Assembly: GCA_024641655.1 (NCBI GenBank)
Contig: JAHECR010000018.1
Span: 1-64,000, forward strand
Reading direction: 5' to 3'
Origin: Acidimicrobiaceae bacterium
GTDB taxonomy: Bacteria > Actinomycetota > Acidimicrobiia > Acidimicrobiales > UBA8592
DNA: 64,000 nucleotides
The notes below the pieces were generated by a model. It was given only the letters and a program-made list of their open reading frames with translations, did not search any database and was not told the DNA's origin. The translations under genes were made by a program, and so were the position numbers. This document shows, piece after piece, positions 22,482-30,946 of the stretch (position 1 is the stretch's first letter; each line of letters begins with the position of its first letter).

Positions 22482-23816
22482 ATGAACCTCACGTTCGGTA
22501 CCGACGGCGTCCGCGGACGGGCCCACGAGGAGCTCACCGTGCCATGGGTCTCCAAGCTCGCTCGTGCGGCGGCTCGGGTGCTCGGGGCCGACACCTTCGT
22601 CATCGGCGCCGACGGCCGCGAGAGCGGCCCGGCATTCGTGCAGGCACTCTGCGGCGGCTTCGCCGCCGAGGGCGTGAAGGTCTGGAACCTCGGCGTCGTG
22701 CCCACTCCGGCGATCGCCTACGTCGCGGCACAAGAGAACATCGCCGGTGCCATGGTGTCGGCGTCGCACAACGGGTACCAGGACAATGGCATCAAGTTCT
22801 TCGCGCCCGGCGGCCGCAAGCTCACCGACGCCATGCAGGCCGAGATCGAGGCCCTGCTCGTCGGAGCGGCCCTCGTGGGCAGCGGCAAGGCTGCCGAGCC
22901 TGCCTCGGAGCGACCGGACCTAATCGATGGCTGGGTCGCTTCTCTCGCGGCATCACTCCAGGGACGCCGCCTCGACGGCATGTCGGTGGTCATCGACTGC
23001 GCCAATGGTGCAGCGTCGGAGATCGCCCCGCGTGTTCTTCGCGACCTCGGCTGCACCGTCACCGCGATCAACAACCTCCCCAACGGGCGCAACATCAACG
23101 CCGACTGTGGGTCGACGCACCCTGCGCAGCTGCGCGAGGTGGTACAGCTCGCCGGGGCTGCCGTCGGGCTGGCCTTCGACGGCGATGCCGACCGGGTGCT
23201 CGCGGTCGACGCCGCCGGCGAGTTCGTGGACGGGGATCAACTCATCGGCATCTTCGCCGTCGATCTGCACGAACGGGGCATGCTGACCGACGACACGGTC
23301 GTCATCACCGTGATGACCAATCTCGGGTTTCGCATCGCGATGCGCGAACGGGGAATCCGCGTGCACGAGACCGCGGTGGGCGACCGGTACGTGCTGGAGG
23401 CACTCGAGGAGCACGGCTGGGCACTCGGTGGTGAGCAGTCTGGCCACGTCATCTTCCGCAACCTGGCGACCACCGGCGATGGGCTGCTGACCGGCCTGCA
23501 GCTGCTCGATGCGCTCCAGCGGGCCCGACGACCGCTCAGCGCGTTGGCCGGCGAAACGATGACCCGCCTGCCGCAGGTGCTCGAGAACGTGCGGGTGGTC
23601 GGCGATGCAGCGGCACTCCTCCCCGTGCTGGCTGACGAGATCGCTGCAGTCGAGGCTGATCTCGGCGACAGTGGGCGGGTGCTCGTGCGCCCCTCGGGAA
23701 CCGAGCCGTTGCTCCGCGTGATGGTGGAGGCGGCCTCAGGCGATGCTGCGCAGGCAGCCGTGGATCGGCTCATCGCCGCGACCCACGAGCTCCTGCGCCG
23801 AGAGGGCACTCGATGA
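22482..23816 (+). CDS. glmM: Phosphoglucosamine mutase
   Basis: Converts glucosamine-6-phosphate to glucosamine-1-phosphate on the way to UDP-GlcNAc for peptidoglycan. 444 residues from ATG 22482 (MNLTFGTDGVRGRAHEELT). The catalytic serine is Ser95 in SASHNGYQDNGIKFF (most homologues have SASHNP; Pro is Gly here). Mg site FDGDADRVLAVD, sugar-binding GGEQSGHVIF, phosphate-binding VRPSGTEPLLRVMVEA. Followed 62 nt later by glmS, giving the two enzymes of the same pathway side by side. Confidence 0.97.
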   Translation: MNLTFGTDGVRGRAHEELTVPWVSKLARAAARVLGADTFVIGADGRESGPAFVQALCGGFAAEGVKVWNLGVVPTPAIAYVAAQENIAGAMVSASHNGYQDNGIKFFAPGGRKLTDAMQAEIEALLVGAALVGSGKAAEPASERPDLIDGWVASLAASLQGRRLDGMSVVIDCANGAASEIAPRVLRDLGCTVTAINNLPNGRNINADCGSTHPAQLREVVQLAGAAVGLAFDGDADRVLAVDAAGEFVDGDQLIGIFAVDLHERGMLTDDTVVITVMTNLGFRIAMRERGIRVHETAVGDRYVLEALEEHGWALGGEQSGHVIFRNLATTGDGLLTGLQLLDALQRARRPLSALAGETMTRLPQVLENVRVVGDAAALLPVLADEIAAVEADLGDSGRVLVRPSGTEPLLRVMVEAASGDAAQAAVDRLIAATHELLRREGTR

Positions 23817-23878: not shown

Positions 23879-26800
23879 ATGTGCGGCATCATCGCAGTCC
23901 TGCGTCGGCGAGCCACGCGGACGGCGCCGACTTCGTCCATGGTGATCTCAGCACTGCCCCAGGCCCCATTGATCGGCCTCGATCCCGACCAGCTCGCTGC
24001 GATCGCGACGTCGCTCGAAGCCGTGGACACGCTTCTCGGTGGCGTGCCCGGGGTGCAGTGTCTGCTCGCCGACGCCAACCTCCTCGCCACCGTCGAGCAT
24101 CGCTGTGCTGGCTTCGAGGCCGTGGTCGCAGATGTCGAACGGGCCCTCGAGGAGGCCGCTCTCGATGTCGGCGAGCTCGAACGGGTGAATGCTTCGCTCC
24201 TCCGCGTGAAAGATGCGGTCTGGGCGATCGGTCGTGATCGGCTACGCACGGCACGCTCGGTGAGCGCGTTGTGCGCCGGTTTCGGCTCGCCCAGTGCAAT
24301 CGAGACCTTCACGTCGGTCCAAGAGGCCCTCTCGGCGCTCGATCGTCTCGAGGTCCGAGGACGCGACTCCGCTGGGCTCCACCTCCTCGTCCGCAATCAT
24401 GGTCTCGACCTCGGCGATCCCGCCGTCGCCGCGGCGATCGACGGCCGGTCGGGCGACCTGAACTTCGGCTCGGGGTCGGTACGCCGTGTCGACGGTGGGC
24501 TGTTGAGCTTCGTGTACAAGGCCGCGGCCGAGATCGGTGAGCTGGGGGACAACACTGCGGCGCTGCGGGCGGCCATCACCGCCGACGAGCTCCTGCATCG
24601 GGCCCTCGACACCGACAACGCCGTCACGGTCGTGCTCGGGCACACGCGTTGGGCCAGTGTTGGCATCATCTCCGAGCCCAACACCCACCCGCTGAACTCC
24701 GAGCAGCACGAGGGTGCGCCGTGTCCTTACGTCACCGCGGTGCTCAACGGCGACGTCGACAACTTCGCCGACGTGCGGGAGCTGGAAGGGCTGCGCATCG
24801 CACCAGCGATCACCACCGACGCCAAGGTCATCCCCACCTTGATGGGCAAGCACCTCGCGCAGCTCGACGGCTCACAGGAGCGCAGTGGCATCGACGAGGC
24901 CTTCCGGCGAACCGTTGCCGCGCTCGACGGGTCCGTGGCCATCGCTGCCAGCGTCGCGTCGGCCCCGAGTGCGCTGCATCTCGCGCTCCGCGGGAGCGGT
25001 CAGGCGATGTATGTGGGCCTCGCGGAAGACGCGTACATCGTCGCCAGCGAACCCTACGGCGTCGTCGAGATCACCTCGCGTTACCTTCGGATGGACGGCG
25101 AAACGCCCGGGAACGCCGACAACCCCACGGCGAGCAGGGGACAGATCATCACGCTCGACGCCTCCGCTGCGGGGACACTGGCGGGCATCCGTCGCGTCGC
25201 CTACGACGGGACCCATCTTCGCGTCGAAGAGGCTGATCTCGCACACGCAGAGATCACCACCCGAGACATCGATCGTGGCGCGTTCCCTCACTTCCTCCTG
25301 AAGGAGATCACCGAGTCACCCCAGTCGTTCCGCAAGACCCTCCGGGGCAAGCTCGTCGAGGTCGACGGCGCGCTGCAGGTACGCGTCGGCCACGCCACCC
25401 TCCCCGCTGAGATTCGGGACCGGTTGCGGTCGGGCGCCATCGGTCAGGTGCTGGTCATCGGGCAGGGCACCGCGGCGGTCGCCGGACAGAGCTTGGCGCT
25501 CCTGCTGCGCAGCCTCGTTGCGCTCGAGGTAGACGCACTCCCCGCGACGGAGCTCTCCGGGTTCCATCTCCGCAGCGACATGAAGGCGACGCTGGTCGTG
25601 GCCATCAGCCAGTCGGGCACCACCACCGACACCAACCGCACCGTCGATCTCGTTCGTGCCCGTGGCGCGGCAGTGGTCGCCATCGTGAACCGCCGCAACT
25701 CCGATCTCACCGACAAGGCCGACGGTGTGTTGTACACCTCCGACGGTCGTGACGTGGAGATGAGCGTTGCGTCCACGAAGGCCTTCTACGCGCAGATCGC
25801 CGCTGGTGCGCTCCTCGCCGTCGCCATTGCCGACGAGGTGCAGCCCGCGCCCGACGCTGCTGCGCTGGGCGTGCGGCGGGCATTGCTCGCGACCTTGCGC
25901 GAGCTCCCCGCTGCGATGGAACAGGTCATCGCCCAGCGGGCGACGATCGGTGCAGCGGCAGCCCAGTTCGCGCCCTCGCGCCGGTACTGGGCGATCGTCG
26001 GCAACGGGCCGAACATCGTGGCCGCTCGCGAGATTCGCATCAAGCTCTCCGAGCTCTGTTACAAGTCCATCGCTGCGGACTTCACCGAGGACAAGAAGCA
26101 CATCGACCTGTCGTCCGAGCCGCTGATCCTGGTGTGCGCCGCGGGGTTGGCGGGGTCCAACGCGACCGACGTGGCCAAGGAGGTCGCGATCTACCGGGCG
26201 CACAAGGCGGCCCCGATCGTCATCGCCGACGAGTCGGCGTCGTTCCCCGCAGCCTTGCACGTGATCAAGGTTCCGACGGTCGATCCGGCACTCGCATTCG
26301 TGTTGTCCACCGTGGTCGGGCACCTCTTCGGCTACGAGGCTGCCTTGTCGATCGACGCGCAGGCGCTCCCGCTGCGCGAAACGCGCGCCGCGATCGAGCG
26401 CACCGCTGCCGAGCATCCCGGCATGTCCGGTGAGGTCATGTTGACGATGCTGCGACCCGGCATCATCGCCGGGGCGCAAACCTTCCTCGACGGCCTCCGG
26501 TCGCGCGAATACGACGGCCACCTCGAGGCCAGCACCGCGGCGCGTGTCTCGTCGCTGTTCCGCTACGCCGCCGGTACCACCTCTCTCGATTCGTACCAGC
26601 TCGACTGGGGCAAGGTGGGAACTCCGGGAACGGTGCTCGAGGACCTCGTCGCGGCGCTGAGCGTGGGTATCGAGGAGCTCACCCGCCCGATCGACGCGAT
26701 CAAGCACCAGGCCAAGACCGTCACCGTCGGGATCTCGCGCTCGGACGAGGAATTGATCGAGCTTCCCGTGATCCGCGAGCTGCTGGCCTCGGGTACTCCC

Positions 26801-27313
26801 CGCGATCGCCTCAGCTATCGCAACCTCCGCATCCTCGCCGCGCTCGATCCGGCGATCGCCCGGGTGCTCGGCTATATCCGCTACCGCGTCGAGGGCGACC
26901 CGACGAGCTCCCCTGCCACGCTGGCGGTCGTCGACCGGGGCGGGGTGGCCGCCGACTTCCCGTCTCGCGTCGACCGCGATCCGGTTCTGCGCGGCAGCAA
27001 ACACCTCGTGGCCCTCGAGCAACTGGTGGTGCTCACCAAGGGGCGCAACGACGGTCGGACCATCATCATGGTTCCCGAGGTGAAGGACCGTCAGACGGTC
27101 GGCATGACCCTGTTGCACGTGGCGTTGCCGGCGTATCTCCCCGAGGGCGTCATCCGGGGCGTGCTCCAGGGGTACCGCAACCGTTACGCCGCGCTTCGCG
27201 ACTTCGTCACCGAGTCGGAGCCGACGTTTCGCGACGACCTCCTGGCGACGGTGCCCGTCGAGGATCTCCTGATCCGACCGGTTTCGGACCTCGCCGAGCT
27301 CTGGCGCAGCTGA
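23879..27313 (+). CDS. glmS: Glutamine--fructose-6-phosphate aminotransferase, giant 1144-residue form
   Basis: Makes glucosamine-6-phosphate from fructose-6-phosphate and glutamine. The usual enzyme has ~610 residues. The class II glutaminase domain starts MCGIIAVL with catalytic Cys2, but ~140 residues (12-150) are inserted before LDRLEVRGRDSAG (154-166); GHTRWASVG follows at 254. LKEITESPQSFRKTLRGK (~474-491) opens the isomerase half; SIS1 has ISQSGTTTDTN (576) and STKAF (632); SIS2 spans ~690-830. A GlmS-like tail RPIDAIKHQAKTVTVG appears only at 936-951, followed by ~190 further residues of unknown fold. Both catalytic halves look intact, so activity is expected. The added parts may be regulatory. 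Neighbour glmM supports the pathway. Confidence 0.93.
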   Translation: MCGIIAVLRRRATRTAPTSSMVISALPQAPLIGLDPDQLAAIATSLEAVDTLLGGVPGVQCLLADANLLATVEHRCAGFEAVVADVERALEEAALDVGELERVNASLLRVKDAVWAIGRDRLRTARSVSALCAGFGSPSAIETFTSVQEALSALDRLEVRGRDSAGLHLLVRNHGLDLGDPAVAAAIDGRSGDLNFGSGSVRRVDGGLLSFVYKAAAEIGELGDNTAALRAAITADELLHRALDTDNAVTVVLGHTRWASVGIISEPNTHPLNSEQHEGAPCPYVTAVLNGDVDNFADVRELEGLRIAPAITTDAKVIPTLMGKHLAQLDGSQERSGIDEAFRRTVAALDGSVAIAASVASAPSALHLALRGSGQAMYVGLAEDAYIVASEPYGVVEITSRYLRMDGETPGNADNPTASRGQIITLDASAAGTLAGIRRVAYDGTHLRVEEADLAHAEITTRDIDRGAFPHFLLKEITESPQSFRKTLRGKLVEVDGALQVRVGHATLPAEIRDRLRSGAIGQVLVIGQGTAAVAGQSLALLLRSLVALEVDALPATELSGFHLRSDMKATLVVAISQSGTTTDTNRTVDLVRARGAAVVAIVNRRNSDLTDKADGVLYTSDGRDVEMSVASTKAFYAQIAAGALLAVAIADEVQPAPDAAALGVRRALLATLRELPAAMEQVIAQRATIGAAAAQFAPSRRYWAIVGNGPNIVAAREIRIKLSELCYKSIAADFTEDKKHIDLSSEPLILVCAAGLAGSNATDVAKEVAIYRAHKAAPIVIADESASFPAALHVIKVPTVDPALAFVLSTVVGHLFGYEAALSIDAQALPLRETRAAIERTAAEHPGMSGEVMLTMLRPGIIAGAQTFLDGLRSREYDGHLEASTAARVSSLFRYAAGTTSLDSYQLDWGKVGTPGTVLEDLVAALSVGIEELTRPIDAIKHQAKTVTVGISRSDEELIELPVIRELLASGTPRDRLSYRNLRILAALDPAIARVLGYIRYRVEGDPTSSPATLAVVDRGGVAADFPSRVDRDPVLRGSKHLVALEQLVVLTKGRNDGRTIIMVPEVKDRQTVGMTLLHVALPAYLPEGVIRGVLQGYRNRYAALRDFVTESEPTFRDDLLATVPVEDLLIRPVSDLAELWRS

Positions 27314-27379: not shown

Positions 27380-27386
27380 TGTGCGC

Positions 27387-28733
27387 GTGCGACCGATCGT
27401 CACCCCACTCGAGATGGCTGCCATCGACCGCGCTGCGGTCGAGCCGGTGGAGGTGCTGATCCGGCGCGCCGGCGCGGCCGTCGCCTGGGCGGCACGCCGT
27501 CGGCTGGGCGGAACCTACGGCAAGCGGGTGGTCGTCCTCGCAGGCAAGGGCAACAACGGCGCTGACGGACGCATTGCCGCCACACGACTGCGTAGTTGGG
27601 GCGTGCGGACCCGGGTCGTCGACGCCGCCGCTCCACCTCGGAACCTGCCGCCGTGTGACCTGGTGGTCGATGCCGCCTACGGGACCGGGCTGCAGCGTGC
27701 CTACGAGCCCCCGCAGGTCGACGCACCCGTCCTCGCCGTCGATATCCCGAGCGGGGTCGACGGCCTCACCGGTGCCTGCCTGGGGTCGCCGCTCCACGCC
27801 GTGGAGACCGTGACCTTCCAAGCCCTGAAGCCGGGGCTGTTGCTGCACCCGGGCTCGGAGTGCGCCGGCGCCATCTCGATCGCCGACATCGGACTCGACA
27901 CGAGCACGGCGACAGCGCACCTCGTCGATCGAGAAGCGGTTGCCGCCTGGTTGCCGTCTCGGTTGCCGACCGCGCACAAATGGCAGCGCGCCTGTTGGGT
28001 CATCGCCGGGTCGCCGGCGATGACCGGCGCCGCCCAGATGGCCGCCGCAGCAGCACAGCGCTCCGGCGCAGGGTACGTCCGCCTGAGCATGCCCGGGACC
28101 GCTCCGTCAGGCCCGCTGGAGGTCGTGCATCACGAGCTGCCCGCCGAGGGTTGGGAGCGGGGCCTCTCGACCGATCTCGAGCGGTTCGGCTCGGTGGTCA
28201 TGGGTCCGGGCCTCGGCCGAGCTCGTTCCACCCGGACTTCGGTGCGAGCCGCACTCGCCGCGATCGACGTCCCGCTGGTGCTCGACGGCGACGGGTTGGC
28301 GGCGGTGGCCCGGCGGCCCGAGATGCTGCTGCTCCGACCCGCCGCCACGGTGCTCACCCCCCACGATGGGGAAGTCGAGCTCCTGATCGGACGCCGACCT
28401 GGACCCGATCGTTTCGACGAGGCTCGCCGCCTGGCAGCGACCCTCGGGGCGGTCGTCCTGCTCAAGGGCCCGACCACGATCGTGGCCGAGCCCGGCGGGC
28501 GCTGTCTCGTCGTCACCAGCGGCGATGCCCGGCTGGCGACCGCAGGCACCGGCGACGTGCTCGCCGGTATTGTCGGCGCCCTGCTGGCGCGAGGCGTCGG
28601 AGCTTTCGAAGCCGCCGCCGCCGGCGCTTGGATTCACGGGGAGGCAGGCATGCGCCGTGCCCGCCGGGGGCTGATCGCCACCGATCTCATCGACGCCATC
28701 CCGGAGGTGCTGGATGCGACCCACCTGGGCTGA
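27387..28733 (+). CDS. nnr: Bifunctional NAD(P)H-hydrate epimerase / ADP-dependent dehydratase
   Basis: Repairs damaged NAD(P)HX: the N-terminal YjeF domain (~1-190) epimerises it and the C-terminal kinase-like domain (~200-448) dehydrates it using ADP. 448 residues from GTG 27387 (GTG 27381 adds two). N-domain motifs: VVLAGKGNNGADGRIAATRL, VVDAAYGTGL, AVDIPSGVDG. C-domain: VMGPGLGRA, VLTPHDGEVELL, TAGTGDVLAGIVGALLARG. It overlaps the start of alr by 20 nt, so the two are co-expressed. Confidence 0.95.
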   Translation: MRPIVTPLEMAAIDRAAVEPVEVLIRRAGAAVAWAARRRLGGTYGKRVVVLAGKGNNGADGRIAATRLRSWGVRTRVVDAAAPPRNLPPCDLVVDAAYGTGLQRAYEPPQVDAPVLAVDIPSGVDGLTGACLGSPLHAVETVTFQALKPGLLLHPGSECAGAISIADIGLDTSTATAHLVDREAVAAWLPSRLPTAHKWQRACWVIAGSPAMTGAAQMAAAAAQRSGAGYVRLSMPGTAPSGPLEVVHHELPAEGWERGLSTDLERFGSVVMGPGLGRARSTRTSVRAALAAIDVPLVLDGDGLAAVARRPEMLLLRPAATVLTPHDGEVELLIGRRPGPDRFDEARRLAATLGAVVLLKGPTTIVAEPGGRCLVVTSGDARLATAGTGDVLAGIVGALLARGVGAFEAAAAGAWIHGEAGMRRARRGLIATDLIDAIPEVLDATHLG

Positions 28734-29820
28734 CATCGATCTCGCTGCCATCGAACACAACGTGAACGAGCTGGCCCGCCTGGTCGATCCGGCGCAGCTC
28801 TGCATCGTCGTCAAAGCCGAGGGCTACGGACACGGAGCCGTTCCCGTCGCGCGCGCTGCTGTCGATGCCGGAGCGCCGTGGCTCGCAGTGGCGCTCGTCG
28901 AGGAGGGCCGACGACTGCGGGAGGCAGGGGTGCGGTCACCGATCCTCGTGCTGTCGGAGCCGCGCCCGTTGGAGATGGTCGAGGTCGTCGCCTACGATCT
29001 CCAGCCCACGGTCTACAGCGGCGAGGGACTCGCTGCCGCGGCCGCGGCCGCGATGCAGTACAGCCAACACCTCGCCGTGCATCTCAAAGTCGACACCGGC
29101 ATGCGTCGCGTCGGCGTCGAGCCCGAGTCGGCCGTCGACATGGCCAAGGCCATCCTCGACAAGCCCGCACTCGAGCTCGCAGGCGTCTGGACCCACTGCG
29201 CCATTGCCGACCACCTCGACAGCACGTTCACCGACACCCAGCTCGACCGCTACGACGACGTGCTTTCTGCGCTTGCCGATGCTGGCATCGATCCCGGTCT
29301 GCGCCATGCCGCCAACTCGGCGGTCGCGCTGGCGCACCCGCGCGGACGCTACGACCTCGTCCGTTGTGGCATCGCCGCCTACGGCCTGACCCCTGGGCCG
29401 CACCTCCGGGGCTTCGCCGACCTACGGCCGGCCATGAAGGTGCGTTCGGAGGTGTCGTTCGTGAAGCGGGTCGAGGCGGGGGAGCGGGTGTCGTACGGGC
29501 TGGCCTGGGCCGCTCCCAAGACGACCAACGTTGCCACCGTGCCGATTGGCTACGCCGACGGCGTCCCTCGGCGTGCCGGCATGGTCGGGGCCCACGTCTT
29601 GATCCGTGGGCGCCGCATGCCGATCGTCGGACACGTCACGATGGACCAGCTCATGGTCGACTGCGGTGACGAGCCCGTCAGCGCCGGTGACGAGGTAGTG
29701 CTGATCGGCGCCCAGGACGACGACGAGATCACCGTCGACGAGTGGGCGGCCTGGCTCGACACCATCAGCTACGAGATCGTCTGCTCCGTCGAGAGCCGTG
29801 TGACCCGCCGCTACCTGTGA
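28714..29820 (+). CDS. alr: Alanine racemase
   Basis: PLP enzyme making D-alanine for peptidoglycan. 368 residues. RPTWADIDLAAIEHNVNELARL at the N terminus; the PLP lysine is Lys34 in VVKAEGYGHGAVPVA (KADAYGHG in most homologues). GVWTHCAIAD, RCGIAAYGLTP, SYGLAWAAPKTTNVATVPIGYADG (catalytic Tyr region) and GHVTMDQLMVDCG are present. Standard length; overlaps nnr by 20 nt. Confidence 0.97.
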   Translation: MRPTWADIDLAAIEHNVNELARLVDPAQLCIVVKAEGYGHGAVPVARAAVDAGAPWLAVALVEEGRRLREAGVRSPILVLSEPRPLEMVEVVAYDLQPTVYSGEGLAAAAAAAMQYSQHLAVHLKVDTGMRRVGVEPESAVDMAKAILDKPALELAGVWTHCAIADHLDSTFTDTQLDRYDDVLSALADAGIDPGLRHAANSAVALAHPRGRYDLVRCGIAAYGLTPGPHLRGFADLRPAMKVRSEVSFVKRVEAGERVSYGLAWAAPKTTNVATVPIGYADGVPRRAGMVGAHVLIRGRRMPIVGHVTMDQLMVDCGDEPVSAGDEVVLIGAQDDDEITVDEWAAWLDTISYEIVCSVESRVTRRYL

Positions 29821-29848: not shown

Positions 29849-30946
29849 ATGAGGGTTCTCCTCGTCGAGCCCTACGCGTCGGGCTCCCATCTTGCGTGGC
29901 TCGACGGCTATCGCCGTCACAGCGGCCATGACATCGACGTCTGCGCGCTTCCCGGCCGCTTCTGGAGATGGCGCCAGCGCGGCAGCGCTGTCGAGCTCGC
30001 GGTTGCGATCTCGAGCCACGTAGCCAAGATGGGCAGGCCCGACGCGCTCGTGGTCAGCAGCCCGACGGACCTTGCTTCACTCCTCGGTCTGGCTCGGCGC
30101 TCGATCAGTGGCGTTCCGGTCGTCGCGTACCTCCACGAGAACCAGCTCGCGTATCCGCATCGCGACGCCGGCGATCTCGACGCGGCGATTCGGTCGTGGA
30201 TCACCCTCGTTGCTGCTGACCGTGTCGTGTTCAACTCGGCGCATCATCGTGCAGTGGTCGCCGCGGCGCTCCCCGGCCTGGCCTCGGCCATGCCCGACGG
30301 TGAGGTCGACCTCGATCCCGCCTGGCTCTTGGCGAAGTCCACGGTGGTCCCCGTCGGCATCGACTTCGAGGCCCTGGCAGCACGGGCCGCCCACGCCGTA
30401 CGCCGATCCGTCCCGCCCTTGATCGTGTGGAACCACCGCTGGGACGACGACAAGGCGCCCGAGGTGTTCGTGCGAGCCTGTCAGCGCCTTCTCGCCGAAG
30501 GAATCGAGTTTCGCGTCGCCTTGTTGGGCGAGGACTCATGGGACGGCGAGCCGCGGCGGGGAGCGGCAGCCGCATCGCTGGGTGCTGCGGTGGCCCAGTG
30601 CGGGCATCTCGGTCACGAGGCGTATCGTGATGTCCTGTCGGAGAGCGACATCGTGGTGAGTACGGCGCGTCACGAGTTCTTCGGCGTCAGCGTGGTCGAG
30701 GCGATCGCCGCAGGTTCCCTTCCCCTCCTGCCGAACGCTCTCAGCTACCCGGAGCTCATCCCGGTGCGCTGGCACGACACGGTGCTCTACCAGCCGGGGA
30801 CCTTCGGTCGTCGTCTAGCCGACATGGTGACCGGGCTCGACGAGGCCCGTCGCGCCACATCGGGGCTGGCCGCGTCCATGGAGCGTTTCGCGTGGTCCGC
30901 GGTGGCGGCCCAGCTCGACGCTGTCGTCACCGCAGCCACCTGCTGA
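29849..30946 (+). CDS. Glycosyltransferase, tRNA-queuosine alpha-mannosyltransferase (QTMAN/GTDC1)-like
   Basis: 365-residue GT-B-type protein. The N-terminal domain matches the DUF3524 family: VLLVEPYASGSHLAWLDGY, ALPGRFWRWRQRGSAVELA and VAYLHENQLAYPH correspond to the conserved blocks of animal GTDC1, which mannosylates queuosine in tRNA-Asp. The C-terminal half has the glycosyltransferase group 1 pattern: PLIVWNHRWDDDKAPEVF and SESDIVVSTARHEFFGVSVVEAIAAG. Family membership is seen in the sequence; mannosylation of tRNA queuosine here is inference. It lies among tRNA-modification genes (truA upstream; tsaE, tsaB, tsaD downstream). Confidence 0.8.
   Translation: MRVLLVEPYASGSHLAWLDGYRRHSGHDIDVCALPGRFWRWRQRGSAVELAVAISSHVAKMGRPDALVVSSPTDLASLLGLARRSISGVPVVAYLHENQLAYPHRDAGDLDAAIRSWITLVAADRVVFNSAHHRAVVAAALPGLASAMPDGEVDLDPAWLLAKSTVVPVGIDFEALAARAAHAVRRSVPPLIVWNHRWDDDKAPEVFVRACQRLLAEGIEFRVALLGEDSWDGEPRRGAAAASLGAAVAQCGHLGHEAYRDVLSESDIVVSTARHEFFGVSVVEAIAAGSLPLLPNALSYPELIPVRWHDTVLYQPGTFGRRLADMVTGLDEARRATSGLAASMERFAWSAVAAQLDAVVTAATC

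Follow-up and report, generated by a model that had tools for sequence, protein, structure and literature searches.

The window analyzed here, that is, the whole 64,000-nucleotide stretch of DNA, belongs to a draft genome of 121 contigs that is 92.8% complete. On its forward strand, positions 23879-27313 form one unbroken frame for a 1144 amino acid protein with a complete core of glucosamine-6-phosphate (GlcN-6-P) synthase, GlmS, and large extra blocks. GlmS, a universal enzyme that is here about twice its usual length, makes the first committed peptidoglycan precursor and is a drug target. Upstream of the ATG the frame is open for just 8 codons (1152 amino acids in total) and holds no alternative start codon, so the protein starts with Met-Cys, the start required of an Ntn glutaminase. 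The genes and features of the locus are as follows:

22482-23816 (+): glmM, phosphoglucosamine mutase, an ORF directly upstream, conserved beside long glmS in Acidimicrobiia and beside ordinary glmS in sister families
23879-27313 (+): long glmS, an ORF for a 1144 amino acid glucosamine-6-phosphate synthase variant (Pfam SIS and GATase_6; TIGR01135, 225.9 bits; model similar in fold to E. coli GlmS and human GFAT-1)
23879-23905 (+): strand 1 of the Ntn glutaminase domain (residues 3-9 in the model), Met1-Cys2-Gly-Ile, with Cys2 as the nucleophile (E. coli Cys1); Cys in 34 of 34 long and 10 of 10 ordinary proteins
23906-24319 (+): N-terminal insertion, residues 10-147, an all-helical bundle that separates strand 1 of the glutaminase domain from its helix 1 (alignment and model)
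24320-25255 (+): remainder of the glutaminase domain, plus the interdomain linker, residues 148-459, with Arg257, Trp258, Asn290, Gly291 and Asp314 (residue alignment)
24392-24622 (+): second glutaminase-domain expansion, residues 172-248, 77 amino acids (74-92 in long vs. 26-31 in ordinary proteins)
25256-26365 (+): isomerase, two SIS subdomains, residues 460-829, with the SQS(G)xT phosphate loop at 577-582, Ser632, Glu718, Lys722, Glu725 and His741 (Pfam and residue alignment)
26366-26683 (+): helical insertion that follows the last SIS helix and precedes the catalytic C-tail, residues 830-935, 106 amino acids (88-110 in long vs. 2 in ordinary proteins)
26684-26737 (+): catalytic C-tail, residues 936-953, RPIDAIKHQAKTVTVGIS, with Ala945 and the Schiff-base Lys946 (E. 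coli Ala602 and Lys603); Lys in 34 of 34
26738-27310 (+): C-terminal alpha/beta domain, residues 954-1144, GAF/PAS-like by weak fold matches to its model, 191 amino acids vs. 1 in ordinary GlmS; 64 relatives aligned
27381-29820 (+): nnrD and alr, downstream neighbors, ORFs by which the slot of ordinary actinobacterial glmS is recognized

Only two Pfam domains were detected in the protein, GATase_6 (residues 250-391) and SIS (523-649), and its score against TIGR01135, the NCBI glmS model, does not reach the cut-off (225.9 vs. 418.05 bits); the long relatives among the matches listed all fall below it too. These scores place long GlmS outside the curated equivalog, and its superfamily assignment stands. 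As a warning to annotators, genomes with the long form appear to be without glmS, since it is rejected by the curated model. The AlphaFold2 model of the whole protein, built from 34 sequences, reached pLDDT 89.5 and pTM 0.80, with residues 947-953 of the C-tail as the sole stretch below pLDDT 50, and in a PDB fold search it matched GlmS and human GFAT-1 (TMt 0.72-0.80, E about 1e-29).

The roles of the catalytic residues are well established for E. coli GlmS. Their counterparts Cys2, Arg257, Trp258, Asn290, Gly291, Asp314, Ser577, Gln578, Ser579, Thr582, Ser632, Glu718, Lys722, Glu725, His741, Ala945 and Lys946 are kept in 34 of 34 long proteins. This set provides the glutaminase with its Cys nucleophile, glutamine-binding Arg and Asp and oxyanion Asn-Gly, and the isomerase with its phosphate loop and the equivalents of E. 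coli Glu488, Lys485, His504 and Lys603, Ser303 being replaced by Ala. The earlier note had read the ORF as a 1144-residue GlmS with all catalytic motifs, a reading borne out by the intact frame and by these residues. The differences from E. coli that are fixed in the long form are Tyr28 to Arg162, Thr76 to Ser260, Cys300 to Gln529, Ser303 to Ala532, Glu351 to Thr581 and Asn600 to His943; judging from their position near the active sites in all members, the changes at Tyr28, Cys300, Ser303, Glu351 and Asn600 could alter substrate or kinetics. Long GlmS shares with bacterial GlmS (TIGR01135; E. coli GlmS, EC 2.6.1.16) the domain order, the Cys nucleophile, the glutamine site, the oxyanion Asn-Gly, the SQSGxT phosphate loop, the isomerase Glu/Lys/His, the C-tail Lys and the slot after glmM. 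In contrast, it has ~26-31% identity to bacterial GlmS in local alignments, forms a separate deep branch, and carries the fixed substitutions and ~490 extra residues.

These extra residues fall mainly into four blocks, which were measured in the window protein by aligning 34 long proteins with 11 ordinary ones (E. coli K-12 GlmS included) and which each keep a narrow length range across the 34 long proteins. Blocks of ~140, ~100 and ~190 residues had been noticed before and measured 138, 106 and 191 amino acids; that list was right for all three and incomplete, having missed the 172-248 expansion (77 vs. ~27 amino acids). The N-terminal insertion, which has 135-156 amino acids in long proteins vs. 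5 in ordinary GlmS, is modelled at high pLDDT as helices 36-53, 55-64, 66-92 and 97-132; Asp112 and Trp115 are invariant, and its conservation is lower than that of the C-terminal domain. Invariant positions of the second expansion are Lys214, Gly220, Gly223-Asp224-Asn225, Arg230 and Asp236. In the 830-935 insertion, the model places helices at 830-845, 851-874, 884-898, 903-910 and 916-942, leading into the catalytic C-tail. In ordinary GlmS, as known from E. coli, the chain ends with this tail, which carries Lys603 and Ala602 and forms a lid on the isomerase site and the channel. Positions 26684-26737 are the counterpart of the 3' end of ordinary glmS and lie ~190 codons inside the long gene. 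The 3' end of ordinary glmS is where Tn7 recognizes its attachment site; with its counterpart internal to the long gene, a Tn7-type insertion downstream of that stretch would strike coding sequence.

Modelled alone from 64 sequences, the end domain reached pLDDT 93.5 and pTM 0.88, with a layout of helices, two strands, a helix, three strands and helices, an order that agrees with GAF/PAS domains. Its top fold matches were largely GAF- or PAS-bearing proteins and were weak (best E 2.4e-3, none below 1e-3; TMq 0.36-0.52, with large rmsd). The GAF domains of fRMsr/YebR (1vhm) and PtsP (3ci6) recurred among these matches and have the same helix/strand order, but their TMq is only about 0.36 and a GAF profile matched 0 of the 64 members. 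The best match by TM-score, a moderate one (TMq 0.52), was 7jsr, the 180 kDa large glutamate dehydrogenase, the matched part of which is not given in the fold-search output. This enzyme carries PAS and ACT-like domains, and its ACT-like and C-terminal domains form subunit contacts (PMC8175468). Here, too, an enzyme of nitrogen metabolism occurs in an enlarged version, with helical motifs and domains of PAS/ACT type; its catalytic core is unrelated to that of long GlmS, and there is no sequence match. No GAF, PAS or ACT Pfam profile matched the 64 C-terminal domains, even at E 10, and scattered matches to other Pfam families, all with E above 0.02, were taken as chance. A PDB sequence search with the C-terminal-domain profile returned one match, a nucleoporin helix at E 0.48, and the viral fold library gave only GAF-like names at weak E. 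Because no fold match had E below 1e-3 and no profile agreed, we use GAF/PAS-like for a fold resemblance and not for proven membership; the end domain, as modelled, weakly resembles GAF/PAS in fold. An earlier description of its fold as unknown thus goes too far in view of this resemblance, weak though it is. Across the 64 aligned relatives, Gly998, Tyr1002, Gly1022, Ser1029, Gly1039, Lys1041 and Pro1066 are invariant and Arg1030 is nearly so.

Our family scan of 84,980 species genomes identified 79 loci, in Acidimicrobiia, other Actinomycetota, Planctomycetota and Desulfobacterota. The 69 complete long proteins have 1091-1175 amino acids (nearly all at least 1132) and a nearly identical layout, with an identity to the window protein of 52-71% in most Actinomycetota and Planctomycetota and of 35-39% in Desulfobacterota. 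Among 296 sampled genomes of other Actinomycetota, carriers occur in four more families. Within the Desulfobacterota, a second and longer branch of the family (loci L094-L101, L116 and L118) has open frames of ~1195-1430 amino acids. In a tree of the shared core, the root of which is not known, long and ordinary GlmS are separated by a single branch with full support, so long that its length is not to be read as a date. This phylogeny, which the earlier note had proposed, indicates at the level of sequence that long GlmS is one deep separate clade. The giant GlmS with extra domains is accordingly real and conserved; far from being a lone oddity, it represents a whole clade that replaces ordinary GlmS. 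In the literature covered, which takes in only a minority of subscription journals, we came across no account of a GlmS of this length, and we regard it as a new form of a known enzyme.

A second, normal-length glmS in the source genome, which had been raised as a sign that this copy uses another substrate, was searched for and is absent: the weak matches to GlmS were two glutaminase-only ones of ~220 positions each, and an explanation through a second glmS was rejected. NagB was not found in this genome either. For the comparison across genomes, the long form was counted where the C-terminal domain was present and the ordinary form where a GlmS scored over the cut-off, and Fisher p values were computed ignoring the relatedness of genomes. 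Of the 198 Acidimicrobiia genomes, 78 carry long GlmS and 104 ordinary GlmS, and the two never occur together (p 2e-39, leaving out one weak extra match in genome G181, E 4e-4), with neither form in 16, many of which are incomplete. The corresponding numbers are 18, 93 and 0 in 121 genomes of a planctomycete class (p 1e-14), and 25, 155 and 1 in 198 genomes of Desulfobacterota, the phylum of Desulfomonile (p 4e-18). The exclusion is not absolute, since one sampled Desulfobacterota genome (G510) and one Desulfomonile bin hold both forms. In G510, the neighbor of the long gene (L116) encodes a nucleotide-sugar epimerase/dehydratase; the ordinary gene (L117) lies on a separate contig. There is good evidence that the long form substitutes for ordinary glmS in several lineages.

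The gene order in Acidimicrobiia is rplM-rpsI-glmM-[long glmS]-nnrD-alr, and in sister families (loci L107, L108 and L109) an ordinary glmS occupies the same slot. The product of glmM is the next pathway enzyme after GlmS. In planctomycetes, Desulfobacterota and other Actinomycetota the neighbors have no function in common, and hence no channel or regulatory partner was found in those groups. The suggestion of a channel partner thus found no backing, as no conserved neighboring gene points to one beyond the cell-wall operon. Neither a glmS ribozyme nor another Rfam family was found near long glmS, and a sigma-70 scan at the gene gave no promoter-like site. A glycosyltransferase-like gene lies at 29849-30946 of the window, between alr and a P1-type peptidase gene; only some related loci have one.

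From residues, fold and replacement, we infer that long GlmS would convert fructose-6-phosphate and glutamine to GlcN-6-P and glutamate. As the source genome has no other GlmS and no NagB, glmM is adjacent, and the two forms exclude each other, we consider it probable, with some reserve, that this protein is the sole GlcN-6-P synthase of its cell, belonging to a deep clade that displaces ordinary GlmS and regulated by its extra domains via the tail. In the proposed mechanism, Cys2 would free ammonia from glutamine, which would pass through the Trp258 gate to the isomerase site, where the SIS domain, with Lys946, Glu725 and His741, would form glucosamine-6-phosphate from fructose-6-phosphate for peptidoglycan. 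In ordinary GlmS the mobile catalytic C-tail is unattached at its end; here it is fixed on both sides by lineage-specific domains, the helical insertion (830-935) and the GAF/PAS-like domain (954-1144), and a small ligand on the end domain may control where the tail lies, thereby linking the glutaminase to the isomerase or separating the two. We infer this sensing and the use of the tail as a lever; the evidence for a regulatory role is moderate and indirect, and allosteric control is the likeliest purpose of the extra domains. It is speculation that Ser1029, Lys1041 and Arg1030 of the end domain suit a phosphate-bearing ligand.

Eukaryotic GFAT-1, which is inhibited by UDP-GlcNAc, has the fold in common with long GlmS, catalyzes the reaction that long GlmS probably carries out, and is a precedent for allosteric control, although eukaryotic GFAT does not have the extra domains. 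In human GFAT-1, UDP-GlcNAc contacts Arg343, Gly355, Thr447, Thr458, Gly461 and His463 (PMC7000685). The aligned residues in the window protein are Lys491, His505, Val603, Ala614, Val617 and Tyr619, so that 0 of 6 contacts are kept (after a shift of 6 in the chain numbers, for which the L405R residue of the 6zmk chain served as guide), and the sequence does not support UDP-GlcNAc control through the known eukaryotic site.

The extra domains of a sole GlcN-6-P synthase might instead be structural, building a larger oligomer or sealing the ammonia path with no metabolite sensing, as the mostly helical modelled insertions and the subunit contacts made by the ACT-like and C-terminal domains of large glutamate dehydrogenase (PMC8175468) would suggest. 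We hold this to be rather unlikely: the end domain is of a sensor-type alpha/beta kind, with its invariant Ser1029 and Lys1041 and near-invariant Arg1030 more like a ligand site than a contact surface, and the N-terminal insertion is less conserved than the end domain. It is improbable that the protein is an aminotransferase of the same chemistry acting on another keto-sugar phosphate, e.g., one from which a sugar of the envelope or of an exopolysaccharide is made. What speaks for such a role are the sugar-phosphate loops, with their fixed changes (Ser303 to Ala, Glu351 to Thr, and the TSDGRD loop), and the nucleotide-sugar epimerase gene beside the long gene in the sampled genome with both forms. 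Against it, the phosphate-loop and catalytic residues are all kept and glmM adjoins the gene, and, given the near-total exclusion with ordinary GlmS in three groups and a source genome devoid of other GlmS or NagB, some enzyme must supply GlcN-6-P for peptidoglycan. The 121-contig draft could also raise the suspicion that assembly or binning created the long gene through a fusion or a frameshift; the chance of this is negligible, and we rejected it, since the 69 full-length relatives of 1091-1175 amino acids come with the same layout from independent assemblies, single-contig genomes included.

Returning to a sole synthase regulated through its tail, we tentatively propose, as a quite possible extension, a second, self-regulated type of GlcN-6-P synthase, in which a deep clade displaced ordinary GlmS in several phyla and a C-terminal sensor tied to the catalytic tail reads a metabolite. 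Ordinary bacterial GlmS is controlled from outside, by a ribozyme, small RNAs and GlmR, and direct control by binding of the end product is, to our knowledge, known only for eukaryotic GFAT. We know of no bacterial case in which the first cell-wall step is controlled by a metabolite-reading C-terminal sensor on the enzyme. If the proposal is true, a clade with built-in domains would be a natural experiment in shifting control into the enzyme.

Further along the pathway, the best GlmU-like protein of the source genome (G000:C47:70131-71183, locus L128; open frame of 421 amino acids) covers positions 2-344 of the 452 of the glmU model at 205 bits, below the cut-off, and the GlmU of this genome may, by this sequence match, also be a variant.
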